This document shows, one piece after another, positions 6,863 to 59,203 of a stretch of 64,000 bases of DNA (the first letter of the stretch is position 1; each line of letters begins with the position of its first letter). The stretch spans positions 1 to 64,000 of the forward strand of contig SKCR01017751.1 in assembly GCA_019454045.1 (NCBI GenBank). The letters run 5' to 3'. The DNA is from Zanthoxylum bungeanum. Taxonomy: Eukaryota; Streptophyta; Magnoliopsida; Sapindales; Rutaceae. The notes under the pieces were generated by a model. It saw nothing but the letters and a program-made list of their open reading frames with translations. It was not told where the DNA came from and ran no database searches. The position numbers were made by a program, and so were the translations under genes.

Positions 6863-7758
6863 TAATTAATCGATAAATATTGACAATAAGGGAGATTTCT
6901 AATTTTGAAATATTAAAAGTGGATCCTCTAACCCCAACAATTTCTTTTATTGTACTTTTATATTTTTAATTTCCAGCATTTACTTTATGTCTTTTATTTT
7001 ATTTAAGCTTTTTTACCTTAGATGTGTGTCGTAACTAAGTCCGTTATCTGGGGTAGTGATGAATTCCAATATCATTGGGTTATAATGGGGTATTTTATAG
7101 TTTGGGTAATATAAAGGTTTACTTATTAAGTCTTAAGCTTAATGCATCTTGTTAACTGGCCACAAATAAGATTGATCTTGTAAACTTAAAATAACTTGAC
7201 AAAGGAATTTTAGGTTTCAGCCTTAGACTTAATAGCCCACGATCTTCCTTAAGGATAGATAAACCTTTAATAGATTTCCTTACAGGATAGACATATACCT
7301 GTTGGGCGGGGGTAGCCACAATTGGAACTTAATCTTAATGAATGCAGGTAATTTGATTGACATAGACATATGGTTTAATTGGGTTACACTGGGTATGTGC
7401 AGTTGACCATCGACAGAGGCTTTTGCATAGTTTCGTGTTCCAGGTTAGTAAACCAATATATTACACAAACATAAAATAACTACTTTATCTTTAAAAAGAT
7501 ATTGGAAGGATTCACAACCCTGAATAGTTTCTTAATATTGAATTTTCTTTAATATATTTTTGCGTAATTTTATTTACTTGTTTCAAGTTTAATGTCACCA
7601 CTCAATCAAACAATCAATCCATTAGATACTTGTAATAATTTGGCTTCATAAACTAATAGATTAGGTTTTAAGGCCTCGTGGGATCGATACTTTTTATACT
7701 ACTTGAACGATACGTGCGCTTGCATTATACGCGCGTGATTACGCACCGGTCAAGTTTT

Positions 7759-7773
7759 TGGCGCCGTTGCCGG
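7759..7773 (+). other. tRNA-Asp primer-binding site, split by CACTA insertion
   Basis: TGGCGCCGTTGCCGG is the start of the 18-base site TGGCGCCGTTGCCGGGGA, typical of Athila elements; the complete site is seen at 46817-46834. The remaining bases lie after the CACTA element from 13555. The insertion makes minus-strand priming impossible for this copy. Confidence 0.9.
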
Positions 7774-7799
7774 CACTACAAGAAAAAAAGGCCTTTACT
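7774..7799 (+). repeat. Left terminal inverted repeat of CACTA
   Basis: It begins CACTACAAGAAAAAAAGGC, followed by a TTTACTGA stretch matching the opposite end with small differences in A-run length. Confidence 0.95.
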
Positions 7800-8095
7800 G
7801 ACACTAAGGTTAGTGACACTAGGCTAAAAGTGTCAGAAACGACGTGTAAATGGGCCTATTTCCGTGTTTTTCACTTAAATATCAATAATTACTGACACTA
7901 TGGTATCAGTGATTTTAGTGTCAGTAATTACTATTACAATAGTATCAGTAAGAAATAAAAAAAAAAAAAAAAAACGCGTAGTCGTCTGGAGTCGAACCAA
8001 CACCTCGCGGAAGTGACGTTTTTCGCATATATTACTGACACTAGAGTATCAGTAAATTTAGTGTCAGTAATTAATGATACCTTAGTATCAGTAAA
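7795..8095. repeat. Left subterminal repeat region of CACTA
   Basis: There are at least eight copies of TACTGACACTA or TACTGATACTA-like motifs and their inverse (TAGTGTCAGTA), often as back-to-back palindromes. In CACTA elements such motifs bind the transposase accessory protein. Confidence 0.85.
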
Positions 8096-8802
8096 AAAAT
8101 TAAAAAAAAAATTTATTTCCTTAAGTCTGCTGGGACTCGAATTTGTAACCATTGATATAATTTTTTTTTTAATTGTAAGGCTTTACCACTGGGCCAAATC
8201 GTGACTTTTGTTCCTTAAACCGCGGTTTATAAAAATATATATGTATTTGTCGGGTCAAAACCTGAACCGTAGTTACCAAATCAATCTTAGTAATTTAGGG
8301 TTCCTCTCATTCCCACCTTTTTTTCATCGCGCAGCCTTTGTTTCCCCCTTCTTTACTCTCAAATATGAATCTCTCATTTGTAATTTCTAAAATCTAAACA
8401 AAATCCAGTACATCCTATCAATTATCAACCTTCAATTTAATAATTTAATAATTATATGAATTTATTATATATAATCATATGAATTATTATTAGATCGGAA
8501 ATTATTATTATTAATTTCTTATGATATTATCTTCGCACCATCAAAAAAATTGTGATAATATTAATGTACCTCCTGAATCAAAGAGCCACTACAAGATAAA
8601 AGATTTGAAAAATTTTACTTAATATCGTTAACGGAAAAAGTTATTCATTGATAGTGTCATTGTCAAAAATCCGTAATGGTTATACATATTTTTCCCAAAT
8701 AAATGTTTACAGAAATTATCTCTAACCAGATTATTTAAAATGAATAAATAAAATGTTTACAGAAATATGTTTGTTTATCTTTGAGAAATGAAAGGCTAAG
8801 CC

Positions 8803-13670: not shown

Positions 13671-15179
13671 GAGACGAACCAGAAGCTTTGAACTTCGACC
13701 GCTTGACCCAGAGATTGAAAGAACCATCAGACAGTTAGAAGGGAAATGCGAGAAGGGAAAAATGCAATCGTCAACATGGAACATGAACCTCTGGAGGTTG
13801 CACCACCAATTCCCATTTGAGACAGAACCATTCATGTGGTTGATGGGCTCATTTCCTGTATTGTATTTCCTCCCTTACCCACAAATGCAGGTGACATCAA
13901 AACTTGCATTCAGATGATACAACAATCAGTTCAATTTGGAGGAAATGCAATTGAAGATCCTAATGCCCATATCAGTAACTTCCTAGAAGTTTGCGGCACT
14001 TTCAATTACAACCGAGCATCAGAAGAAGTAATGAGACTGCAAGTTTTCCCATATTCCTTGAAGGACAGAGCTAAAGTTTGGCTACATTCACTGCCAGCAG
14101 GTTCCATCACAACTTGGAACACTCTAGCCACCAAATTCCTTGCAAAGTACTTTCCCCCAACTAGAACAGCAAAACTGAGGAACGACGTCACATCTTTTAT
14201 GCAAGAAGATTCAGAATCCCTTTACGAAGCTTGGGAAAGGTACAAAGATTTGCTCCAGAAATGTCCTCACCATGAGATTCCAAAATGGCTTCAAGTCCAA
14301 ACTTTCTATAATGGACTTTCTGGATTGATGAGAACCACAATTGATGCTGCTGCTGGAGGAGCTTTGATGGAAAAAGGAGAAGATCAAGCCTGGGATCTAA
14401 TCGAAGAAATGGCAAACAACAATTCCTTGTGGCCAACGGAAAGGAGCATGATCCAAAGAATTGGTGGAATTTATGAAGTTGGAGCCAATACAGCAGTTGA
14501 CGCCAAGCTGGATCAGATATGCAAATTCATGGAGACTATCGACATGCAAAGCAATATTGGATCCACAAGTTCACCATATGAAGAAGGACCAGAGCCAAAC
14601 CAACTTTAAGAGATGGTGAACTATGTCAATAATTTCAACAGACAGATGAACAATCCATATTCCAACACCTACAGCCCATGGTGGAGGAATCATCCCAATT
14701 TCTCATGGAGCAACAATTCAAGGCCAAAGAACTATTCACTACCCGGATTCCAACAGCAACAGAAAAAAGTCTAGGAGTAGGAAAGTGAACCAGGAATAGC
14801 AGAAGTGCTGGCTCAGTTAAAAAAATTTGATGCTATCTTTCAGAGAGAATCAGTTTCCATCAAAGCACTGTAAAATCATATTGGACAACTAGCCAATGCT
14901 CAAAGTTACAGACCGCTAGGAAATCTTCCCAGCAACACAGAGCCAAATCCAAGGAACCGAGGGAAGGAGCAATGTCAAGCCATAACCTTGAAAAGCGGTA
15001 CTGAAATCAACAAAGATGTTGGAATCAATGCAACCATTGAAGAAGTTCCAAAAGATGTAGTTCCACAGATAGAGGAAAATGAAGTAGAGGAAAAAAAAGC
15101 AAAGGAAAAAGAAAATGATCAAATATCTCCACCTCCACCTTTTCCTCAGCGTCTTCAGAAAAACAAATTGGACAAGTAG
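13671..15179 (+). pseudogene. Athila-1 gag, frameshifted
   Basis: Gag forms the virus-like particle. A likely start is ATG at 13671 (MRRTRSFEL...), after a pyrimidine-rich TTTCAG stretch. The frame shifts near 13835. The conserved core is clear at 13836-14609: FLEVCGTFNYN, WLHSLPAGSITTWNTL, KFLAKYFPP and WERYKDLLQKCPHHEIP, all hallmarks of Athila gag (Retrotrans_gag). Stops follow at 14607, 14773 and 14871. A Pro/Glu/Lys-rich linker (14988-15179) leads into protease. No zinc knuckle could be found. Confidence 0.88.
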
Positions 15180-15371
15180 TTTGCTCGATTATTGGAGGTG
15201 TTCAAAAAGCTGCACATCAACATTCCATTTGCAGAAGCTTTGGAACAAATGCCCAGCTATGTCAAATTCATGAAAGACATTCTTTCACGAAAACAGAGAT
15301 TGGGAGATTATGACACAGTAGCATTATCGGAATAATGTAGCACCATCATTCAGAGAAAGCTTCCCCCGAAG

Positions 15372-15700
15372 TTGAAAGATCTTGGCAGTTTTACTGTCCC
15401 ATGCCCCACCAGAGAACATTATATCGGTAAGGCTTTATGTGACTTAGGTGCAAGTGTTAATTTAATGCCTTTTTTTATTTATAGGAAACTGCAAATTGGA
15501 GAAGCAATGCCCACCTCAGTCTCTCTGCATCTTGCTGATCGAACGCTCGTATTCCGAGAGGAGTCGTTGAAGTTGTGTTTGTCAAAGTTGACAAACTCAT
15601 TTTCCCAGCAGATTTCATCATCCTTGACATGGAAGAAGACAAAGATGTACCTATCATTCTTGGCAACAGGTCGAACTGTTATTGATGTACAAAAATGAGA
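15372..15700 (+). pseudogene. Athila-1 aspartic protease
   Basis: The motif CDLGASVNLMPF holds the catalytic D-[LS]-G-A triad with Leu instead of the usual Ser/Thr, as is normal in Athila. Downstream, another frame continues FPADFIILDMEEDKDVPIILGN, the conserved C-terminal half, so there is a frameshift near 15560. It lies between gag and RT as expected. Confidence 0.85.
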
Positions 15701-16019
15701 ATTAACCATGAAAGTTCAAGACCAAGAAGTTACCTTCAATGTTTTCAAAGCCATGAAATTTCTGAGTGATGAAAAAGAGGAAGCATGTTTCAGAATTGAT
15801 GTTGTTGATAGTATCATCCAAGATACTGATACAATTTCCATGGACAAACTTGAAGCTTGCATCACTAACATGACTGACATCGAGCTAGATGCTAAAATTC
15901 TGAAATGTATCAACTATCTTGACAAGCCATTCTATTTCAAATCAACACCACCAGTTGAAAGTCTGGAACTCCCAAAGAAAGATCGAATCAAGCCCTCAAT
16001 TAAAGAACCACCACAGCTG

Positions 16020-17108
16020 GAGCTGAAGTTACTTTCGAGCCATCTCAGGTATGCATTTCTTGGAAACTCTTTTGAATTACCTGTGATTATTTCTTCTTCG
16101 CTAACATTGGAGCAGGAAGAAAAGTTGCCGAGAGTGTTATGAGAACACAAGAGAGCCATTGGCTGGACTATAACAGACATTCGAGGCATTAGTCCATCAT
16201 TTTGTATGCATAATATTCTGATGAACGATGAGTACAAACCCACAGTGGAGCACCATCAGAGACTTAATCCAATCATGAAGGAAGTCGTGAAGAAAGAAAT
16301 TATCAAATGGTTGGATGCTGGCATCATTTACCCCATCTCATACAGCAGCTGGGTGAGTCTTATGCAGTATGTACCAAAGAAATGAGGAATTACTGTAGTC
16401 ACTAATGAAAAGAACGAGATGATTCCAACAAGAACAGTTACTGGATGGAGAGTATGCATGGACTACCGGAAGCTGAATAAAGCAACGAGGAAAGACCATT
16501 TTCTGCTGCCATTCATTGATCAGATGCTAGACAGACTGGCGTGACATGAGTCCTATTACTTTCTGGATGGATATTCAGGATACAATCAGATTTCCATCAC
16601 CCTAGAAGATCAGGAGAAAACCACATTTACATGTCCATATGGTACTTTTGCTTTCCACAGGATGCCATTTGGACTATATAATGCCCCTGCCACATTTCAA
16701 CGTTGCATGATGGCCATCTTCTCAGATATGCTGGAAAAGAGTATGGAGGTTTTCATGCATGATTTCTCTGTGTTCGAATACTCTTTCCACTTTTGCTGGC
16801 AAAATCTGGAACATGTGTTACAAAGATGTGAAGATACCAACATGGTACTCAACTGGGAGAAATGACACTTCATGGTGCATGAAGGCATTGTTCTTGGACA
16901 TCGGATCTCACAAAAGGGGATCGAGGTAGACAAAGAAAAGATCGAGAAAATTGAAAAACTACCTCCACGAACATCTGTCAAAGGGATTCAGAGTTTTCTT
17001 GGATATGCAGGCTTTTACAGGAGATTTATCAAAGACTTTTCCAAGATTGCTAAACCTCTGTGCAATCTTCTGGAGAAGAATGTGCCTTTCAACTTCACTA
17101 AAGAATGA
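16020..17108 (+). pseudogene. Athila-1 reverse transcriptase, mutated active site
   Basis: RVT_1 domain: [88 protein letters not shown]. The catalytic FMDD is changed to FMHD at 16752-16763 (Asp to His), which by itself should abolish polymerase activity. In-frame stops occur at about 16140, 16383, 16542 and 16863. RT is followed by the connection ([20 protein letters not shown]). Confidence 0.92.
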
Positions 17109-17560
17109 TAGGAATATTTTCAGATCCTAAAACATAAGCTAGTTTCAGCTCCTATCATTGTAGAACAATAATGGACCCTTCCATTTGAGGTAATGTGCGA
17201 TGCTATTGATTTTGTTGTAGGTGCAGTTTTAGGACAACGTAAAGCAAAAGTTTTCCACACCCTTTATTACTCATGCAGAACTCTGAATGAAGCTCAACTC
17301 AACTATACAACCACTGAAAAGGAGTTGTTTGCAGTTGTGTTTGCTTTTGACAAATTCCGCTCTTATCTGCTGGGTCCCAAAGTGGTGGTCTACACAGATC
17401 ATTCGACAATCAAATATCTGATTGCGAAGAAATATGCCAAGCCTAGATTGATCCGTTGGATACTTCTTCTCCAAGAATTCGATGTGGAGATTCGAGACAG
17501 GAAAGAGACATAAAATCAAGTGGCAGAACATTTTTTAAGGCTCGAGAATGGAGAAACAAC
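17109..17560 (+). pseudogene. Athila-1 RNase H
   Basis: Gypsy-type RNase H motifs are visible: [15 protein letters not shown] (first Asp), [19 protein letters not shown] (Glu), [11 protein letters not shown] (Asp). The end reads RDRKET then a stop, where DHLSRL-like sequence is expected; AEHF follows after the stop. Confidence 0.9.
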
Positions 17561-17595
17561 TAGCAAATAATTGACAATTAAAGAAACTTTTCCAG

Positions 17596-18515
17596 ATGAA
17601 CAGCTACATAGTGTCAGGAAAATGGCCGTTGGAATGGACAACTCGGCAACGGAAGAAGTTCTTCAAAGAAGTCAAGCACTGTGTTTGGGATGAGCCATAT
17701 CTGTTCAAACGTTGTGCTGATCAATTACTGAGGCTTGTGTTCCATAAGAGGAGGTCAACAGTGTTCTGTAACATTGTCATTCATTCTAATACGGCAGACA
17801 CTTTAGTAGGAATAAAACTGCAGCCAAAGTCCTTCAATCAGGTTTGTTCTGGCCCACTTTTTTTTAAAGATGCTTATCTTTTTGCTCTTCAATGTGACAG
17901 GTGCCAAAGAACGGGGAATGTTTCAAGGAGAAATGAAGAACCTTTGCAAAACATTCTGGAAGTGGAGATATTCCATGTGTGGGGTATCGATTTTATGGGA
18001 CCTTTTGTTCCATCAATCAGAAACCTGTACATACTGTTTGCAGTAGACTACGTCTCCAAATGGGTTGAGGTAAATGCACTACCATCAAATGATTCAAAAG
18101 TAGTGATCAAGTTCCTTAAAAAGAATATTTTCACTCGCTTCGGAACACCTTGTGTAATTATCAGCGATGGTGGTACACACTTTTGCAACAGATATTTCGA
18201 TGCACTCTTATCCAAATATGGAGTTACTCATAAGGTTGCCACTGTCTACCATCCACAGTCAAATGGACAGGTTGAAGTTTCAAACAGGGAAATTAAAAGA
18301 ATCTTGGAAAATTGTTGGATCAACAATGAGAGACTGGTCTACAAAACTGGATGATGCATCATGGGCCTACCAGACAGCTTAAAAGACACCCATTGGTATG
18401 TCCCCATATCGAATGGTGTTTGGGAAAGTGTGCCATCTCCCAGTTGAGCTTGAACACAAGGCGTACTAGGCACTGAAGAAGTTGAATCTTGGTCCACAAG
18501 CTGCAGAAGAGAAAA
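17596..18515 (+). pseudogene. Athila-1 integrase, truncated
   Basis: Zinc-binding part [15 protein letters not shown], then catalytic core: first Asp in WGIDFMGPF (17989-17991), second Asp in IISDGGTHF (18166-18168) and Glu in [16 protein letters not shown]. The frame breaks near 18350 but continues into PYRMVFGKVCHLPVELEH. It ends at the family-B LTR inserted at 18516, losing the C-terminal chromatin-contact region. Confidence 0.92.
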
Positions 18516-20545
18516 TATTGGACAATTATGACCCATAGCGTCACTATTTGTACAGATCATGGTGTTGTTGTACAAATTAACTATGTGACTAAGGAGATTG
18601 CACTCTTATCATCTGTGATTAGATCACCTAGATGTATAAATAATAGGAGGTCCCTATGATTTGTTCCTGGACGGAGAATAATATGAGAGAATATCAGTCC
18701 ACGAAGGATAAATCATTAAATATCCCTAGTCAGAGTATTATCGAGATTGGACATCGATAAATACGTAAAAGACTAGTATTACACTTGTGCGCATTGTGAG
18801 GGTACAACGACATAGTTCTCATATATTTGGGTATAGGATACTCATGCAAGTGTAATAGGAGGTTGTGTTTTACCGATGGTACGGGAAACAGCTTTGCTCT
18901 GGATAGACCCCCTCGGAATTCCATTGGTAGTATTACTATGTGTCTATAGAAGTCCGACATCATGGTAGGTGTATTTGGTCTTAACCTGAGACTTGGACCG
19001 CTAATACTTGCGACAATCAATATACTTTGGTTGCGGTCGTCCATGACTTTAACCGGTTCTGTGTACGCCAATACTGGGTATATTGAGAATCGTAGTGTGT
19101 TGGGTGTGATTTCAAGACGGAAGTATCACTCCACTCATAATGGAGATGATGGTCAAGTAGGATACGGGACTGGTTCTCTTAAATGCTGCAGCTATCGGGA
19201 TAAAATGACAAGGTCATGTTTATCCGATTAATGAGACTGGTTACCATACATCCGACATGTGCTTCGTACGGGGGACACAATTCCAGCCCCAGGCCTAGCA
19301 CGTAATCATCCGATACTGGACAGAAATACGCAATACAATGTATACTACGCCTGATACAGATCATTTATTCCTGTAAGGATATTTCAGAAGAATTGGGTAG
19401 GCACAACGCTTTTCTAGAGGCCAACCTTGTCTTGTAAATCGGTATAAACGTAGTACTTGGTACTTGGATCTTCGGATAGTCCGACGACCGAATTTACTGC
19501 CAACATATCCGGGGATCTCATGGGTCGCTTCCCAAAGATTCACCGATGATGTATGACTCGCACTCTAAATTAATCTGGATTAATTAGAAGAGAGAGAAAA
19601 TTAATCTGGGATTAATAGCGGATATATTTTATCTGGGATAAAATATCCATTAAAGAGAGAGAATGATTAATTTGGAATTAATCGAGAAAACTAATATATT
19701 TGATATATTAAATGAAATTGGATTTCGACGCGGAATTAAAATTAGATTTTAATTCGGGCGAACGAATTAATTTAGAATTAATTTGTTAGCGACGTGAATA
19801 GTGATTTCGGTAGGTGTAATCATTTAATTACGACGCAACGGAAAATTCATTAATTTGGAATTAGCGAACCTGAGCCCGAGATTATTTGCGAGCGCATTCG
19901 CATTTTGAATTGGAGTGCGGCACGCAAGTCAAATCAAGCGTCAAATCATTAGTCGCAACAAGTGTCTAATCACATGTCACTTTGAGTGATTTGACACTTG
20001 ATTGATTAATGTGATTGATTGATGGTAGTTTTGGGATTGTTGGAACCATTTGACCTTTTGAAAGCCAAATAAATGGTAAATCATTTTATTATTTTTTGGA
20101 AAATATAAATGGGTATTAGATGCACATTTTACCCAACAACACATCATCTCTCCTCTCATTTTTTCTCTCATCACTCACGCCCATGGAGGGGCAAAAAGCT
20201 TACTGGTTTTCTCTCAAAACCGTGAGTAGTGGGAAGCCAAGAGTTGGATTTTGCGGCAAAATCACAAGTGCTAGCACACTTACGAGACATACGAAGGTGA
20301 TAGGGAAGTCCACCCATGAACCGGGAACCATTCGACGAAGCTTGGAGCTTGACGAAGGACCAAAACCGAGCCAAAACAGTGAGTTGTGAACTGCCACTAC
20401 CGAATGCACAAGGAGCGGAATTTTGAGTTTTGTTCGTCTCCGCGTCGTTCAACCGATCGATATGAGTATTCTGCAACTTCGTTGATTTGTATTTGCACAT
20501 CTTTCATGCTTATTATTGATCTTGGGACCTTAATAGAAACCAACA
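18516..20545 (+). repeat. Copia family-B LTR (B1), 2030 bp, followed by its leader
   Basis: It begins TATTGGACAATTATGACC (TG mutated to TA) and ends AGAAACCAACA. A primer site TGGCATCTAGAGC follows at 20547, so this is a 5' LTR. The internal part is cut after about 1.7 kb. The upstream target is Athila-1 integrase. Confidence 0.88.
20104..20112 (+). promoter_or_regulatory. Candidate TATA box near the B1 LTR 3' end
   Basis: TATAAATGG is followed about 35 bp later by a CT-rich stretch (CATCTCTCCTCTC), which resembles a plant transcription start and untranslated leader. It is an alternative to the box about 115 bp into the LTR. Confidence 0.35.
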
Positions 20546-23965: not shown

Positions 23966-24430
23966 CTCTCTATCGTATAGTTTATGGAAAACCTTGTCAT
24001 TTTCCTGTAGAACTTGAGCATAAGGCATATTGGGCTTTAAAAACCTTGTCATTTGCCTGTAGAACTTGAGCATAAGACATATTGGGCTATTAAATCATTC
24101 GATTCAAACCATGAAAATGTCAGTCATGAACGTAAACTGCAATTAGAACTTGAAGAGTTAAGGAATGATTCATATGAGAATGTAAAAATTCTTAAATCTA
24201 AAACTAAGGCCTTTCATGACATCCCAATTTCACGAAAAATATTTAAAATTTGTCAAAAAGTTTTACTTTATAATTCTCATCTTCATTTATTTCCAGGAAA
24301 ATTGAAATGCAATGGAGTGGCCCATATATTGTGAAACACGTTTATCTATATAGGGCTATTGACATTGAGAATCCTAAGGATGGTGATGTATTTAAAGTGA
24401 ATAGACAACGACTGAAACCATTTTTCGAGT
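23966..24430 (+). pseudogene. Athila-3 integrase C-terminal end
   Basis: Motifs: CHLPVELEHKxYWAIK, then KIFKICQKVLLYNSHLHLFPGKL, then a WSGPYIVKHV-like segment in another frame, ending VNRQRLKPFFE. These are the last parts of Athila pol. A tandem duplication of about 55 bp (about 23989-24098) repeats the CHxPVELEHK coding stretch. Confidence 0.85.
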
Positions 24431-24673
24431 GTTCAAATTTTCAAGAATCTCTTTTCCTTTCAAACCCAATGTACTATTATTGATATTTTTTTCTTTTCTT
24501 TTATTTTGTATTTGTCTAATTTCCATTTTTATTGAGTTTTGTAGCATTTTTTTTTTATCTTTTCATATTTTTTTAGAATCTTGCACCTCGGTTAAACACC
24601 GGATAACGGTACTCTGTGACTCTAAGTTGGTTCTTTCAGTTTCCTAAAATTAAAAATACCCTACAATCAAGTC

Positions 24674-25222
24674 ATGGAAGAAACTCTTGCAAAACTCCAC
24701 AATCATTTTCCTTATCTCACCTAAAATGCTCTGATGAAAATTTACAAAGCACGCACCGAAAGAATGAGGCTTCTAATTATCCATGGTATTCCTAGTGATA
24801 TTCCTTGGGTATTTGAAGCAAGGGTTCATTTGGCAGGTGAGTCATCTGACTCTTTCATTTCTTACATGTCTGGTTTAGGTAAAAACATATATGCTAAAAA
24901 AAAAGAGCTAAACAATTAGGTGTTTGTTATAAATGTGCTTGTTAGATGTGCAACATTCATTGTCGTTCTTTAGGAATGATGTTTGACAATCGCGAACATA
25001 AAATTTAATTAATTAGAGATGGATTGAGTAAAGAGTCTTTAGATGATATATCATTGACTTTTGAAACGCATCCTAGTGGACATGTTCATCGAGTAATTCG
25101 CAATTTGCATACAAATTTTCAAAAAGAAAGACAACAATACAGTCTCAGGAATCTGACTTTAAAAGACATTGTTTGCCAATTTATAAGAAAATTGGATGGG
25201 AAGCATATCCCCGACCCATAGA
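24674..25222 (+). pseudogene. Unknown ORF between pol and the LOG-like copy
   Basis: An ATG at 24674 (MEETLAKLHNHF) opens a reading path of about 180 codons. It has one stop near 24722, a frame change in an A-run near 24900, and stops near 24945 and 25007. It contains a Cys-rich cluster (CYKCAC.MCNIHC), then a charged part (KESLDDISLTFETHPSGHVHRVIRNLH) to a stop at 25220. I do not recognise it. By position it could be an env-like ORF, or part of the same captured cargo as the LOG copy. Confidence 0.45.
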
Positions 25223-25542
25223 GGGAGTTCAAGCCGTTACTGGACGTAAAACCAGAGGAAGATGTGAGCCAAAATCGCAATTACCCGTACATATTTTCAA
25301 TTTATTGCTTTAATTATTTTATTTTAAATTACTGCTTTGATTTACTTTAATTTACTGTTTTGATTTCCTTTAATTTTGTCGACAATATCTAAACTTTTTT
25401 ACTTTTACGATCTATTGTACTGTTCATCTGACAATTGTCATTTTACAAGTGCTAGTGCATTTACTACTCACATTTTTTTAGGATCTATAAATTCAGCTCG
25501 TCATTTCTCTCTTCGTCACATCCAGATAAGAGAAAGAGCAAA
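25223..25542. other. AT-rich gap between unknown ORF and LOG-like copy
   Basis: It has T-rich low-complexity DNA (TTTAATTTACTGTTTTGATT repeats near 25305-25375) and no motif. Confidence 0.5.
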
Positions 25543-26197
25543 ATGGAGAAAACTTCAAGACGACGAATCACCAATATCTGTTTCTTTTGTGGAATTAGCT
25601 CTGAAACTAAACCAGAATTTGTTGAGGCTGTACAAGAATTAGGTAGAGTTATGGCGGAAATAAATATGCAATTAGTATATGGTGGTGGAAATCTTGGATT
25701 GATGGTGTGTGTTTCAAAGGTCGTGCAAGAAGGTAGCAGTCAAGTTTTGGGGATCATTCCAAAAACCTTTGACAGAGGAAAACCTCATCGGAAAATCAAA
25801 TATAGAAGAATGCATTGTCTCATGTATGTCTGAAAGACTTACTGAAATGATCAATCATATTGACACTTTTATTACTTTACCAGGTGGGCTTGGCACGTTG
25901 GAAGAAATATTCATAGTTGTGTTATGGGCGAACTTGAAAATTCACTAAAAACCCATTGGACTACTTAATGTTGATGGCCTTTTAGGATTTTCTTTTTGTA
26001 TTTCTTGAGGATGCCAAAATAAATGGGTTTATTTCAAAATTGGTAAAGATATCTTCCTAACTGCAAGAAAAACTGATGATTTAATTAACCAAATTTTAGC
26101 TTATGAACCAAAAATTGACCCCATTCTTTTCAAGTTGAACTGCTCTGGTGACGATTGTGGCAAGAAGCGTAGAGTGGACTTGAATCTTAATCTGTAA
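25543..26197 (+). pseudogene. LOG-like cytokinin riboside 5'-monophosphate phosphoribohydrolase, intronless retrocopy in Athila-3
   Basis: LOG enzymes release active cytokinin from its nucleotide in the cytosol. ATG at 25543 gives ICFFCGISSETKPEFVEA, aligned with the family N-terminus, then VYGGGNLGLM and VLGIIPKTF. After a frameshift near 25785 it continues MSERLTEM...DTFITLPGGLGTLEE; PGGxGTxxE at 25880-25906 is the family signature, and the Arg and Glu used in catalysis appear kept. After IH a stop interrupts, then KPIGLLNVDG and finally IFLTARKTDDLINQILAYEP. The tail KKRRVDLNLNL before the stop at 26195-26197 is not usual. Total length is near that of full LOG. Plant LOG genes have several introns and none is visible here, so it came through RNA. 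It sits in the env slot of Athila-3. Confidence 0.88.
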
Positions 26198-26283: not shown

Positions 26284-26324
26284 GACATTGGGGACACTGT
26301 CTCAAATTTGTTGGGAGAGAGGAT
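26284..26324 (+). other. Athila-3 conserved 3' segment and polypurine-like stretch
   Basis: GACATTGGGGACACTGTCTC followed by TTGTTGGGAGAGAGGATAG resembles the segment before the 3' LTR of Athila elements. It shows that the LOG copy lies inside the element rather than downstream of it. Confidence 0.55.
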
Positions 26325-27442
26325 AGCAGACTAGATAGTTTTTATTTTTATGATTCGTTGATGTGTTTTTTGTTCAAAAAATTTTTTTTTTTGGGTTTTA
26401 AAAAGAAAAAAAAATATTTCATTTTTTTTGTTTTTGCTTTGTTGTTATTGTTGGACAGTTATGGCCCATAGCATCACTATTTGTATAGATCATGGTGTTG
26501 TTGTACAAATTAACTATGTGACAAAGGAAATTGTTATTTTATCATTTGTAATCAGATTACCAAGATGTATAAATGATAGAATGTCCATATGATTAGTTTC
26601 GGATTGAGATGATATGAGACAGTGTCAATCCACGAAGGTTTAATCATTAAATATCCCTAGTCGTAATATTATCGAGATTGGACATCGATAATGCAGAATA
26701 GACTAGTATTACACTTGTGCGCGTTGTGGGAGCATAACGACATAGTTCTCATTTATTTGGGTATAGGATACTCATGCAAGTGTAATAGGAGGTTGTGTTT
26801 ACCGATGGTACGGGAACAGCTTCGCTCTGGATAGACCCATCGGAATTCCATTGGTAGTATGACTATGTGTCCATGGAAGTCCGAATCAGGGTAGGTGTAT
26901 TTGCTCTTAACCTAAGTCTTGCACTGCTAATACTTGCGACAATCAATATACTTTGGTTTTGGTCGTCCAGCGCTTTAACAGTTTCTATGTACGCCTCTTC
27001 TGGGTATATTGAGAATCATAGTGTATTGGGTGTGATGTCGAGATGGAAGTATCACTCCAGTCCTAGTGGAGATGATGATCACGTAGGATACGGAACTGGT
27101 TCTCTTATATACTGCAGTCATCGGGATAATATGACTAGGTCATGATTATCCGATAATAGAGACTAGTTACCAGAGATCCGATATGTGCTTCGTACGGGGC
27201 AGACACAATTCCAGCCCTAGGCCTTACACGTGACATCTGATACTGCATCGAAATATGCAATACTACGTATACTACGCCTGATATAGATCACATATTCCAG
27301 TAAGAATATTTATGGAGAATTGGGTAGGCACGGTGCTTTGCTAGAAGCCAACCATGTCTTGTAAATCGGTAAAACCGTAGTACTAGGTACGTACGTTTTC
27401 GGATAGTCCGACGACCGGATTTACTGCCAATATATCTGAGGA

Positions 27443-27447
27443 TCTCA
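27443..27447 (+). repeat. Target site duplication TCTCA (left) of A'
   Basis: TCTCA precedes the LTR start and is repeated at 34268-34272 after its end. Five bases is the usual Copia duplication. Confidence 0.95.
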
Positions 27448-29387
27448 TGTTAGACATTATGTCCCATAGCGTCACTGTTTGTAAATGATATTGTATTATT
27501 GTACAAAATTAACTATGTGATAATGAAATTGCCTTTTGCCGTTTTGTAATATTATTTACTTTGACTTATAAATGGCGAAAGTCCATATGATTAGTACCTG
27601 GACTGAGAATGATATGAGACAGTATCAGTCCCCAAAGGTTTAATCATTAAATATCCCTAGTCTAGTAGTAGTATTATCGAGACTGGACATCGATAATGCG
27701 GAATAGACTAGTATTGCGCTTGTGCACGTTGTGAGGGCACAACGGCATAGTTCTCATATATTTAAGTATTGGATACTTATGCAAGTGCGATAGGAGGTTG
27801 TGTTTTACCGATGGTACGGAAAACAGCTTCGCTCTGGATAGACCCCGCGGAATCCCATTGGTAGTATGTCTACGTGTCTATGGGAGGCCGCATCAGGGTA
27901 GGTGTATATGGTCTTAACCTGAGACTTACATCGCTAGTACTTGCGACAATCGGTAAACTTTGGTTTTGGTGGTTGGGGACCTTAACCGGTTCTGTGTACA
28001 CCTCTTCTGGGTTTATCGAGAATCGTAGTGTACTGGATGTGATGTCAAGATGGAAGTATCGCTTCAGACATATGGAGGTGATGATCACGCAGGACACAGA
28101 ACTAGCACTATATAAAAGGTTGCAACCGTCGGGACAATATGACCAGGTCAGGATTGTCCGATTTAAAGAGACTAGTTGCTTGATGTCCGATATATTTCGT
28201 ACGGGGCAGACACATCTCCAGCCCCAGGCCTAGCATGTGATCATCTGATACTGGATCGATGTACGCAATACTACGGTATACTACGCCTGATACAGATCTT
28301 ATATTCCTATAAGAATATTTCTGGAGAATTGGGTAGGCATGGCGCTTTGCTAGAAGCCAACCTTGTCTTGTAAATCGGTAAAGACGTAGTACGAGGTACG
28401 TACGTGTTCGGATTATCCGACGACCGTATTTACTGCCAAAATATCCGGAGATCTCTTGGGTCGCTTCCTGAAGATTCACCTATGATATTTGATTCGGACT
28501 TAATTAATCTTGGATTAATTGCGGAGAAACTTTATCTTGGATAAAGTGCCTATTTAGAGAGAGAGAGAACGATTAATTTGGAATTAATCGATAAAATTAT
28601 TGTATTCGATATAATAATCGAAATTCGATTTCGACGCGAAATTAAAATTAGATTTTAATTCGGGCATACGAGTTAATTTAGAATTAATTCGTAAGCGACG
28701 TAAATAATAATTTCGCTAGGAGCGATTATTTATTTAAATCCGATTTAATTAACGTCGCGACGCTAGCTCGGTATTTCGGAAATATCGAACCCGAACGCGT
28801 GAGTGGACGTGGGCCCACTTTCATTGGGAAACGTGTGGGGCCCACATGACACTTGTCATTATATGCATTATTTAATTGATAAGGCATTGCATGGTGATAG
28901 TGTGCATTACACTCAAATGTTTTGCATGGAGTTTGAGTGTTTGACACTCTAAGCCATTGCATGGTTTGTGTCATAGATTTATTATTAATTTATAAAATTA
29001 TGGCATAAATATAAATTGATTTTTGGTAAAACAAAATCAATTACACAAAACTTTTCTCTCTCAAATTTCTTCACATTGCCGTGAACTCCATGGAAGGACA
29101 AAGGAAGATTTGATCTTCTATTCTCCATTTTTGCTAGCACAAGCAAGGGATCAAAAGAGGTGATAGGGAAACCATCAAAGATCTTGGAATACAAAAGCTT
29201 GGAGCTTCAAGTCTTCTTCCTCCTCTTGGCCGAATCTTCCAACACTTGGAGCTTCCACCATTGATCATCTTCTTCATCACATAGCTTTGTAAGTATGATT
29301 CCGCCATGCTTCAAGTCTTTTATATATTCATTTATAGTATTTCATGAATGCTTAATCTTTCCTTGGGACATATTATAGAAACCAACA
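27448..29387 (+). repeat. 5' LTR of A' (1940 bp)
   Basis: TGTTAGACATTATGTCCC...AGAAACCAACA, closely matching the LTR at 3598-5551. It contains the recurrent short ORF (27874-28233) and a TATAAAT box at about 27564. Confidence 0.95.
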
Positions 29388-31489: not shown

Positions 31490-31888
31490 ATACATTGACA
31501 TTATACATATGTTTCGGACTTGGATGTCCACCTAACCGGATCTAGGAATTGGATGAGATCCAATTGATCATGGAGATCTACCTATGTTAAATAGCATACA
31601 ATTTTTATTGGCCAAAGTCAAGGTTGTGTGTTATTTAACGGGATCCTAGCCCACTAGGAAATTCGATTTCCCGAGTTCTCTACAGAGGGTTAGAAACTTG
31701 AAGAAAATAGTGGGAGGCTATTATTGAATTTGCAATTTCATTCAGATATTTAGCCTTACGCGTCTTTCAAAATTATTTCGTCAATATTTTAAATAATTAG
31801 TTGGACTAATATATTGTTATTTTTATATGTAACAGTTTGACTGTACCCATAACATCGTTGACTTTATAGTTGGACTATAGTTGTCAAG

Positions 31889-32720
31889 ATGATTGGCAAA
31901 GGTAATATCCGCGACATAATCATGGGCGATAATGTCTTCAAAGGGACAAACTTTGCCGACTGGGAAATGAACCTCAAGATAGTGCTTGGGGCTGAGAGGA
32001 TACTGTATACTATTCAGACACCTCTCCCGCCTAAACCCACTGAGCCACTGGAGCTAGAGTTATGGAAGACTCATAGTGATGATTGTGACCAAGCTCAGTC
32101 AGTTATGCTAGCTGCAATGACCCAGCATTTCAGACGCCAGAATAGGGATTTGGATCCCTATAACATGATGGCAAGATTGCGTGATCTTCACCGCACCAAT
32201 AAGCGGATGAAGAGGTACGAGCTAGTAAGGAAACTCTTCCGCTCCCGGATGACAGACGGCGCATCAGTTGAAGCCCACGGGGCTCAAATGATTGCCGATA
32301 TTGATGAGTTGGCCAATATGGGAATAGTCTTGGAGGCTGATCTGACTATAGATATGATCTTGCAGTCACTTCCTGATACTTGGAAACAAATCATAGTCAA
32401 CTACAAGTTGATGGATACGGATGACACTCTTGGAGAGTTGTTATCTGTCTTGAAGGAGTCCGAAAGGGAACTCCTAAAGGGGAGCAAGCGCGAGGCGCAT
32501 TTTGCATTGACCTCTCATGCGCCAAGGGGGGCCCCAAGGCAATTGGAGGTGCAAGGAAGAAGAAGTTCAAGAAGAAGGGTAAAGGCAAGTTGACAGTGGC
32601 TTCTAGGAAGCCAAAGGACAAATCTCGCGACATCTGCCTCAACTGCGGCAAGAGGGGTCACTGGAAACGTGACTGCCGAATGAGCATTGTGCAGAGGGAG
32701 GATATCAAGGCTGGCAAGGC
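31889..32720 (+). pseudogene. Copia A' gag with zinc knuckle, one frameshift
   Basis: Starts MIGKGNIRDIIMGDNVF; the core reads NFADWEMNLKIVLGAERI, LRDLHRTNKRMKRYELVRKLF and LQSLPDTWKQIIVNYKL (UBN2/gag family). One base is missing in a G-run near 32527 relative to the other A copy, so the frame ends as RRVKAS at 32593. In the next frame the CCHC knuckle CLNCGKRGHWKRDC (32635-32676) is perfect. Apart from that single indel the protein is complete. Confidence 0.92.
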
Positions 32721-56558: not shown

Positions 56559-59203
56559 TGAACAATCTTAGATCTATGGTTCAATGGTGAACTTCCAGAA
56601 TCGATATCAAATATCACTTCCATTATAAGTTATAGGATAATTTTCTTTATAAGAAAACAACAGAACCATTAAGTATCAAATACTCATAAATGATTCTGAT
56701 ATCCTATTAGACTTATATAGAAGATGTATAAGGGTTGTTTCATCTTATTAATTACGTAGTTCCATTTATAATTTATCATTCTCACATTTGACTTCAATAA
56801 GTCAAGTCTTTTCTACAATAGTTAACATCTGATGTTACACACCAAGTAATAAAATGATTTTATTACTTGGGATCGTAGGAAAGATATTCTATCAAATAGA
56901 ATACAATATTCTATTAAACAGAATAAACGATAAACTTTTACTTATACCTTCGAGGTGTAAATAATTTACATTATATAACTATTATATAAAAGAAAGATTC
57001 AAATCTCAAACTTTTCAAGATTCAGATTTTCTACCTATACATATCATATATGTAACTGTGGAAATTAATGGAACCTAAATTAAAAGGATGAACTAGTGTT
57101 ACTAGAGCATATCCCCAAGAGTATTGAAACTAATTCGGTAACATTCAATATCAAACGAATCAAATCATATAAGATTCGACTGCTCCCACTACTCAATTCC
57201 ATCAAGATGGAATCGTGGAAGAATAATATTGAATATGAATCATATTCACTGAATAACCTTAGAACTAATTACTTTAAATTCATATGTTTGATCATATCAA
57301 CGATCTTTGAACAATTCAAAGACTTGTTATGAATTTTAATGATAGAGTTCTCACAAAACATCAGATTGAATATATATGAACAAGTCAAAAATATTCAACC
57401 TACGTTTCATCAGAACAGATTGAAAGTTCTTGATTATTTCAAGACGTTCAATATGTGTTCTTTCAGAAACACGTAACTAAGTTATGACAATTCATAAACT
57501 AAGTTACGAAGTAAAGAAAACTACCTTAAGCAATTACAATTTATTAAACTACATACATCCAATATATCAGTTAAATAAATCTGGTGGTCCAATGACAATC
57601 ATTGGTTAAACGAGATCTTAATCACCTTCCTGAATACAATATTCGTTAAATGGATAAGGATATGTGGTGTGATCTCGTATCAAACCATCCTTTACCATAC
57701 GGAATAAGCATCCAATGCTTAAGTGATAAAATCTCCTAAAGCACCGTTCTACATTATTTATTTTACCGAATAATTTTTCTTAATTTTTATCTCTACGTCA
57801 ATGACATTACTAGTTATATTTAAAATATATAACAACTTCTTTAAAAAAAACAAGTAACTATCCAATAGTTGCAAGTTCCGATATCAAATATCAAAAACAA
57901 TCGTTAACTAATATTTTAAATAACTAGACGGGAGATCTGGTATCCAATACCTATAGTTGTAGTATTGTGAAAATCGATATTTCTATACACAACTATACGC
58001 TTCTCCTTTCTTTAGCTTTACTATTTGCATTCAACTATTCACAACAATTGTAAATAATTGATTAGCAAATTGTGTCAGACACATTGCCTCTATAGGTCAT
58101 TAAAGCTAAGAAAACGTCATTACTAGATAAACAAATACCTAATGGGGCTTTCTTAATACCAGTCAAGAATCTCGAGACATGAACTAATTCAAGTCAATTC
58201 TTACTGCATAAGAAACTATTCTCTCTAAGTATATACCCTAAAAGGGATATCTATCTAGATTATCTATCATGACTTAGAAACTAAGTCATTAACCATCTTG
58301 ATTTTTGAAGAAAATCAGAACAATAGTTCCCGATGGTTTAGACAATTCTAATAATATCCTAGTCTAGTAGTATCTAGAACCTATTCTAGAATAACTGCAA
58401 ACAAGAGTCAAGTCAGATAACATATCAAAAATATGTGCAGTGAATTAAAAGTTTAATTCTATCTAATATAATAGATTAAGGAAAACAAACAAGCGGCTAT
58501 TTCTATAATAATACACACTGCATAAGTTAAGGAATATCTTAAACTTAGCAGTGCCTCCTACTATTTACGTAATACCGTAATCCCTAACGGAAAAATGAGA
58601 ATTCAATAATTAAATCAAATTCCATAATGGGAAGTGGACCCCATGAATATATTTCGACTCACAGCAGAGGCACGGTCTCACCTACGTATATTTACAGGTA
58701 GACAACTCATTTGTCAATCACTCAATAGTGACTCCGAGGTTCCGGTCCTGGTCGTTTCTCATTGTCGGTGCTAAGGTAGGCCCACAAGGAGACGTACCAA
58801 GGTTAAACTCGTCAATGATAAACTCAAGTTACTTGCGTAACCCTGACAGCTAGGGCACGTTCAGGATTCCGCTTTCGCTTGAATTTATCTAGTATCTAAT
58901 ATACATCTGGCATAAATAAATCTCTATGGGCTACACCCTCACAGCAGAGGCACGGTCTCGGATGTAGTCACGGAAAAATATTCATAAACCGTATTGACAA
59001 GACGGACCAAGAAACAAGTATTCCAAATACCAATTACTTTAAAACCTTATTAAGCAGGGATATTCCATAAAAGATTCTTTTAATTTATTTAATCAAATTA
59101 AATAAATATATGCATGCTACAAGTAAAGAAAAGAACAAGAATTAGATTTTAAAGGGCTAATCATATCGGGGTGTCCAGAATCAGACTCGCTCTGATACCA
59201 TTT
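56559..59203 (-). other. Leader of element C, minus strand
   Basis: AT-rich, with no convincing ORF. It begins at the primer site (59189-59200) and ends where the family-B LTR is inserted. The motif CACAGCAGAGGCACGGTCTC occurs twice (about 58660 and 58940). Confidence 0.75.
59189..59200 (-). other. tRNA-Met primer-binding site of element C
   Basis: The minus strand reads TGGTATCAGAGC, three bases from the LTR. Confidence 0.9.

Follow-up and report, generated by a model that had tools for sequence, protein, structure and literature searches.

The 64,000 nt of Zanthoxylum bungeanum DNA analyzed here (contig SKCR01017751.1, positions 1 to 64,000, assembly GCA_019454045.1; henceforth the window) probably hold a dead copy from a high-copy Ty3/gypsy retrotransposon family of Athila type that carries a CRP gene and a LOG gene between pol and the 3' LTR as a host-manipulation cassette. 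We put the probability of this reading at about two in three. The relevant features of the window are as follows.

13821–18520, + strand: gag (PF03732), reverse transcriptase (RT, PF00078), RNase H (PF17917), and integrase (PF00665) of Ty3/gypsy type; possibly not the LOG-bearing copy
23971–24468, + strand: C-terminal part of an integrase, 5' neighbor of the accessory genes, located by tblastn with the integrase of locus L039
24674–25222, + strand: broken CRP gene (carlavirus/flexivirus-type cysteine-rich nucleic-acid-binding), located by tblastn and DNA match
25460–25500, + strand: conserved non-coding block 5' of LOG (ACTCA, a pyrimidine run, AG, then CTATAAATTCA), from an alignment of 34 copies
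25543–26197, + strand: broken LOG gene (cytokinin riboside 5'-monophosphate phosphoribohydrolase-like), from Pfam, tblastn, and genome matches
26159–26194, + strand: codons of the C-terminal LOG tail, a basic patch followed by LxLxL (EAR-type)
26284–26324, + strand: 3' segment pointed out in the initial annotation, inside the stretch that is colinear with other copies
26447–27449, + strand: LTR of another element, inserted in the 3' region and distinct from the LTR of the LOG element

The initial annotation had recognized a LOG-like sequence at 25543–26197. Profile searches confirm this assignment, since the pieces score 33 bits against PF18306 (cut-off: 26.3) and 47.5 bits against PF03641 (cut-off: 27), and a tblastn search with an uninterrupted LOG protein from the same genome covers residues 1–217 in two pieces at 25543–26194. 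By eye, a three-frame translation contains the one in-frame stop that had been described before and slightly more frame changes (at least three) than the two reported. Plant LOG genes have introns; we saw none in 25543–26197, and RNA-mediated capture of LOG is plausible.

On the 5' side, the L039 integrase matches 23971–24468 in three overlapping tblastn pieces with 39–66% identity. The gag-RT-integrase stretch at 13.8–18.5 kb may represent a different element copy, because integrase residues 268–305 occur on both sides of the interruption at 18.5–23.97 kb. On the 3' side, we take the segment at 26284–26324 to be an Athila motif. We rejected the possibility that the LOG element's own LTR starts at 26447; the copies leave the window near there. 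The window is heavily nested with elements: stretches similar to the LTR at 26447–27449 recur within it, and a copia-type gag ORF (PF14223) of another retrotransposon occupies 31862–32590.

Searching the genome (3.96 Gb, 51,709 contigs) with the window LOG DNA returned 8,992 first-look candidates, a figure that does not equal verified copies. All 40 scored matches, the window's own included, span nearly all of the 655 bases, and the other 39 do so with 89–91% identity. In seven examined copies of the window sub-family (L002–L008) the match runs continuously through LOG. It begins at the colinear integrase end in L002, L003, L005, and L007 and further 3' in L004, L006, and L008; it ends at 26449–26454 in five of the seven (L005: 26393, L006: 26389). 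L002 and L003 are 99.2% alike and hence nearly one copy. The PF03641 profile returned 47,331 first-look candidates, again not verified copies. Every one of the 150 scored exceeded the cut-off and 147 had no stop inside the 131-position match, but these are the best-scoring candidates, hence biased to intact copies. LOG is uninterrupted end to end in 16 of 30 examined loci chosen with this profile (two of the 16 are near-duplicates of others) and in none of eight examined copies of the window sub-family, the window's included.

A second set of loci was chosen by CRP DNA, independently of LOG. From 6,313 candidates 40 were scored, and loci were examined for 24; because they are the closest relatives of a single element whose genes are intact, they do not represent a random sample of the genome. 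LOG sequence lies downstream of CRP in 23 of the 24 (in some it is partial), LOG is uninterrupted in six, and CRP is uninterrupted in 11, with the query locus included in each count; LOG is broken or absent in 18. The recurring order is integrase end, CRP, LOG, and 3' region. Near-duplicates (L003, L014, L021, and L027) were left out before we counted loci that have LOG without a CRP match (7 of 27), which show that the pair is not obligatory.

With these data we could settle several points of the initial annotation. Its placement of LOG in a retroelement, 3' of pol and 5' of the 3' region, is supported, the element being of the Ty3/gypsy type. The genome search that it proposed uncovered many LOG-bearing copies, and its key question, whether intact copies exist in the same genome, is answered by the uninterrupted LOG genes in both locus sets. 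It had seen LOG alone in the slot; this view has to be revised, since the CRP gene at 24674–25222 precedes LOG. We rejected the idea that pol and LOG were joined by a one-off chance insertion on account of the 40 of 40 matches, the colinear copies, and the 23 of 24 CRP-chosen loci. The related proposal, that LOG is a host pseudogene which lies beside the element by chance and is no part of it, would suit a window so heavily nested. It is refuted by integrase end, CRP, and LOG being colinear in separate copies and by a LOG that sits between a matched pair of LTRs (L040, see below), so that we give it practically no chance.

Several other structures were recorded around these loci. L020 and L021 (contig C45283, matches at 57261 and 60751) are LOG-bearing stretches with 98.9% identity that share one orientation, are separated by about 3.5 kb, and constitute a tandem duplication. 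Many of L002–L040 contain repeats of about 105 bases some 550–650 bases downstream of LOG, and L041 contains a longer tandem array further downstream. A 3' LTR of L039 was not found in about 4 kb of further sequence.

The window CRP was detected by tblastn in overlapping pieces (24674–24958 and 24898–25215) with 58% and 71% identity, and the DNA match of other copies runs to 25222. When intact, this ORF between integrase and LOG codes for about 182 residues, in which a cluster of cysteines comes after a basic stretch. We scored two CRP copies of this genome against both Pfam families: each exceeds the cut-off of 23 for Viral_NABP, at 29.9 and 27 bits, while for Carla_C4 (cut-off: 20.9) one copy passes with 29.5 bits and the other stays below with 18.7 bits. 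Among 37 aligned CRP homologues, 35 and 34 match Viral_NABP and Carla_C4, respectively, with E ≤ 0.01. A database search found 245 proteins; no virus is the source organism of any of the 120 listed homologues, which come from Orobanche, Xanthoceras, Populus, and Acer, and one of which (P0179) was named "Viral nucleic acid binding" by JGI. The predicted structure of CRP is poor (pLDDT 67) and matched no viral structure in a fold search at E ≤ 0.001. The link to viral CRPs therefore rests on sequence profiles, with scores near the cut-offs, by which the element protein resembles them. The CRPs of carlaviruses, allexiviruses, and mandariviruses are likewise described as having cysteines clustered behind a basic stretch, with Carla_C4 or Viral_NABP domains (PMC12172455). 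The element CRP differs in being encoded by a retroelement and in its length of about 182 residues, and its suppressor activity is putative. According to the same source, viral CRPs are silencing suppressors, and p12 of chrysanthemum virus B (CVB) is also a transcription factor that causes hyperplasia (PMC12172455). CRP and LOG are combined in a gene model of Orobanche minor (P0237); a second model (P0231) links CRP to a stretch that looks aspartic-protease-like by eye and has no Pfam hit.

By profile, fold, and core motif, LOG is predicted to be a type-I phosphoribohydrolase with a putative role in cytokinin activation. PF03641 scores reach 127.4 and 128.4 bits (cut-off: 27), and the structural model (mean pLDDT 85.6) matches AtLOG3 (2a33) in a Foldseek search with E 5.4e-20, 52% identity, and TM scores of 0.92 by target and 0.75 by query. 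The catalytic residues are Arg99 and Glu122 in CgLOG (PMC4979012). Among the 108 listed relatives with a recognizable PGGxGTxxE core (11 of 119 without it were left out), Arg is present in 100 and Glu in 105, and both are kept in all three aligned LOG copies of the Zanthoxylum genome. The Lys of the MHxRK motif, which corresponds to the adenine-binding Lys100 of CgLOG (PMC4979012), is retained in only 10 of the listed sequences, among them the Diospyros host LOG P0130, and in none of the three same-genome copies. Since this Lys is mostly lost and eight of the 108 relatives lack the Arg, the substrate or activity of the element LOG may differ. Compared with the plant LOG enzymes AtLOG3 (2a33), AtLOG8 (1ydh), and P0130, the element protein shares the fold, the PGGxGTxxE motif, and the catalytic Arg and Glu; it differs in coming from an intronless gene, in the frequent loss of the Lys, and in an added basic and LxLxL tail.

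One alternative is that LOG serves nucleotide or silencing biochemistry instead of a hormone pathway, for example, as a phosphoribohydrolase acting on other nucleoside monophosphates in favor of reverse transcription. A mostly missing adenine-binding Lys next to retained catalytic Arg and Glu would suit such a role, as would the report that some plant LOGs preferentially form the riboside (PMC11593424), but the conserved LxLxL tail is left unexplained. We consider this alternative unlikely.

Excluding P0038, the tail forms the exact end of the protein in 91 of 118 listed relatives, occurs in relaxed form in eight, and is absent from 19, several of which are truncated proteins. Such a tail was also found in 37 of 40 loci of our own, a count that includes duplicates and loci that overlap. 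P0130, the only host LOG whose end was compared, has no such tail, and relatives of the Xanthoceras type keep the core and have no LxLxL end. The model confidence falls below pLDDT 50 at residues 204–217, and the tail is likely disordered. LxLxL is described as one form of the EAR motif, which binds TOPLESS (PMC8126959). The LOG tail matches this form by sequence; LxLxL is a short motif, and TOPLESS binding is putative. One may also ask whether the LOG fold mainly presents the basic patch and LxLxL as a TOPLESS-recruiting repressor, with catalysis being secondary. The exact ends in those 91 relatives and the low model confidence, as for a flexible end, would agree with such a scaffold, and pathogen effectors that target TOPLESS through EAR motifs are known (PMC8126959). 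Conservation of the catalytic residues in most relatives and the retention of the core in Xanthoceras-type proteins that have no LxLxL end argue against it, and we see only a small chance that it is correct.

We now return to the preferred reading and to the architecture of the element. The aligned copies share a block about 45–85 bases before LOG, with a between-lineage identity of 0.74–0.79 in 20-column steps, compared to 0.41–0.72 in the other steps, bar one sparsely filled step at 0.75. The sequence of this block makes a 3' splice site and/or a TATA box possible. At locus L040, a gag-like ORF and an uninterrupted LOG lie between LTRs at 801–2108 and 6908–8196. These LTRs differ at 29 of 1,286 sites (K2P 0.023), presumably corresponding to an insertion age of about 0.9–1.6 My at general substitution rates. 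The gag-like ORF was named by eye as an acidic ORF and has no gag hit in Pfam; no pol was recognized in L040 by inspection for pol-like ORFs and by comparison with the pol of the window. This upstream layout is common to seven of 27 non-duplicate loci, L040 included. L009, L010, L015, L029, L031, and L036 are 82–90% identical to L040 upstream of LOG, and the layout has no CRP match and no recognized pol.

Membership of the LOG element in Athila fits the features we examined at the sequence level, namely gene order and the missing chromodomain. The order gag, RT-RNase H-integrase, and extra region 3' of pol is composed of gag to integrase in the window, where this stretch may be another copy, and of integrase followed by CRP and LOG in L039. 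At E ≤ 0.1, the domains matched by the 420-residue integrase ORF of L039 are limited to rve, Integrase_H2C2, and, weakly, DDE, with no chromodomain. L040 contains TGGCGCCGTTGCCGGGGG close to where its 5' LTR ends; this is a candidate primer binding site, which may be of the tRNA-Asp type. tRNA-Asp is listed among the primers of non-chromoviruses (PMC6317226).

To measure constraint, we calculated dN/dS by the NG86 method for seven copies of the window sub-family and 27 other non-duplicate copies. Between these lineages, LOG shows a mean dS of 1.30, a dN of 0.188, and a ratio of 0.145; between-lineage LOG ratios are rough, because a dS above 1 is near saturation. Within the window sub-family the ratio is 1.16, as expected for dead copies, and within the other lineage it is 0.23; the "intact" within-lineage value of this first comparison was obtained from 12 copies. 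Selection of the other lineage's copies by domain score might have depressed dN; a separate count restricted to codons beyond the domain gave 0.12 between lineages and 0.35–0.36 within the other lineage. In the CRP-chosen set, with 21 copies left after dropping the query locus L042, the duplicate L046, and L047, which has no LOG, the LOG ratio was 0.18 between lineages (codon bootstrap: 0.14–0.27, 60 pairs sampled) and 0.49 within; for the last 14 LOG codons in this set, the values are 0.15 and 0.70. CRP ratios between lineages are 0.31 and 0.28 in the two sets, in which four window-type copies (L001, L002, L005, and L007) were compared to 15 or 21 others. The LOG ratios of 0.145–0.18 between diverged lineages imply that LOG is kept by purifying selection. 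CRP is under purifying selection as well, weaker than that on LOG, and the LOG of the window's sub-family drifts.

Fixed differences gave a less decisive picture. Strictly fixed LOG differences (19 synonymous and 10 nonsynonymous vs 496 and 538 within groups; Fisher p 0.09) are too few to decide, and at a looser threshold of 85% the fixed counts are 66 and 43 (p 0.015). The same test on CRP was not significant (p 0.07 and 0.14). Between the same lineages, the dS of CRP (0.51) is well below that of LOG (1.30), possibly because of CRP exchange or uneven constraint. A divergence gradient over integrase, CRP, and LOG was considered as a sign of module exchange and rejected, since it is confounded: the upstream integrase of the window may belong to another copy.

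There are at least two LOG lineages, because two pieces of the window LOG resemble P0016, a relative from the database (77% and 78%), more than L018, a copy of the other lineage from the same genome (67% and 57%). In a LOG tree with 47 rows, 43 relatives fall on one side, opposite to three host LOGs and a bacterial outgroup (support 98/95). This topology is compatible with one capture, in a tree that holds only three host LOGs and in which an element location was seen for few of the relatives.

Could LOG be a passenger, that is, a host LOG transcript captured once and then copied along without benefit to the element? The 18 of 24 CRP-chosen loci with broken or absent LOG, the ratio of 1.16 in the window sub-family, and the 0.49 within the CRP-chosen set point in this direction. 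The idea is contradicted by the low between-lineage ratios at a dS above 1, by catalytic residues and a tail that persist in many relatives with only about 50–65% identity, and by a derivative that has no recognized pol and still keeps LOG. We therefore regard a passenger as very unlikely.

Most likely, CRP and LOG act as a host-manipulation cassette that would combine silencing suppression with cytokinin activation and/or TOPLESS recruitment. Everything in this mechanism past the point that the genes are kept by selection is what we infer. LOG, and perhaps CRP too, would be translated from a separate mRNA that arises by splicing or internal initiation. CRP might blunt silencing of the element, and LOG might raise the level of active cytokinin; through its tail, LOG may also enter the nucleus and bind TOPLESS. 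Dividing meristem cells would thereby be favored, such that new copies could reach the germ line. A more far-reaching version is doubtful, though conceivable: an old retroelement lineage would have maintained, by selection across several eudicot orders, a two-gene host-reprogramming cassette of a virus-type suppressor/transcription factor (CRP) and a nuclear, TOPLESS-binding, cytokinin-activating enzyme, with which it would drive cell division and escape silencing like a virus or T-DNA.

The initial annotation had called a LOG-carrying retroelement unusual. In this respect it does not hold. LOGL4-like extra ORFs in Athila-like elements were reportedly described by Steinbauerova in 2011 (Genetica). 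LOG-bearing Ty3/gypsy elements of plants are in print, since a LOG/YgdH domain was detected in LTR-retrotransposon consensuses from two Citrus species and, without a filter, also from Populus trichocarpa (PMC9289625). These elements likewise place a LOG domain inside plant LTR retrotransposons; the main text of that report, as far as examined, is confined to the occurrence of the domain; a CRP partner, a C-terminal tail, a test of selection, and a derivative lacking pol are not mentioned there. Ty3/gypsy elements of orchids similarly captured and amplified a cellular enzyme domain, an RNA demethylase of the ALKBH type; enzyme and host group differ, and no CRP partner is described in that part of the source (PMC9289625). 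Athila elements with env-like or extra ORFs are described with an env-like protein in the slot (PMC7264820, PMC6317226), whereas here we find CRP and a protein with an enzyme fold. In the literature searched, which mostly did not extend to subscription papers, we found no report of the CRP and LOG pair, of CRP in LTR elements, of the LOG tail, or of the selection evidence, and no listed match mentioned a CRP family, by name or accession, together with "retrotransposon". LOG in plant LTR elements is thus known; the CRP and LOG pair, the tail, and the selection evidence are apparently new as judged from this search.

The role of env-slot genes in plant retroelements is an open question, and here the slot contains two recognizable genes under constraint. 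An enzyme-like LOG with retained catalytic residues and an interaction motif, together with a CRP like a viral suppressor, makes this question testable. With candidate hormone-gene copies numbering in the thousands in a single genome, the family also matters for annotation. Three Populus proteins named LOGL10 (P0042, P0049, and P0061) share this basic and LxLxL tail at their C-terminus; their genes may belong to retroelements and be misannotated as host LOGs.
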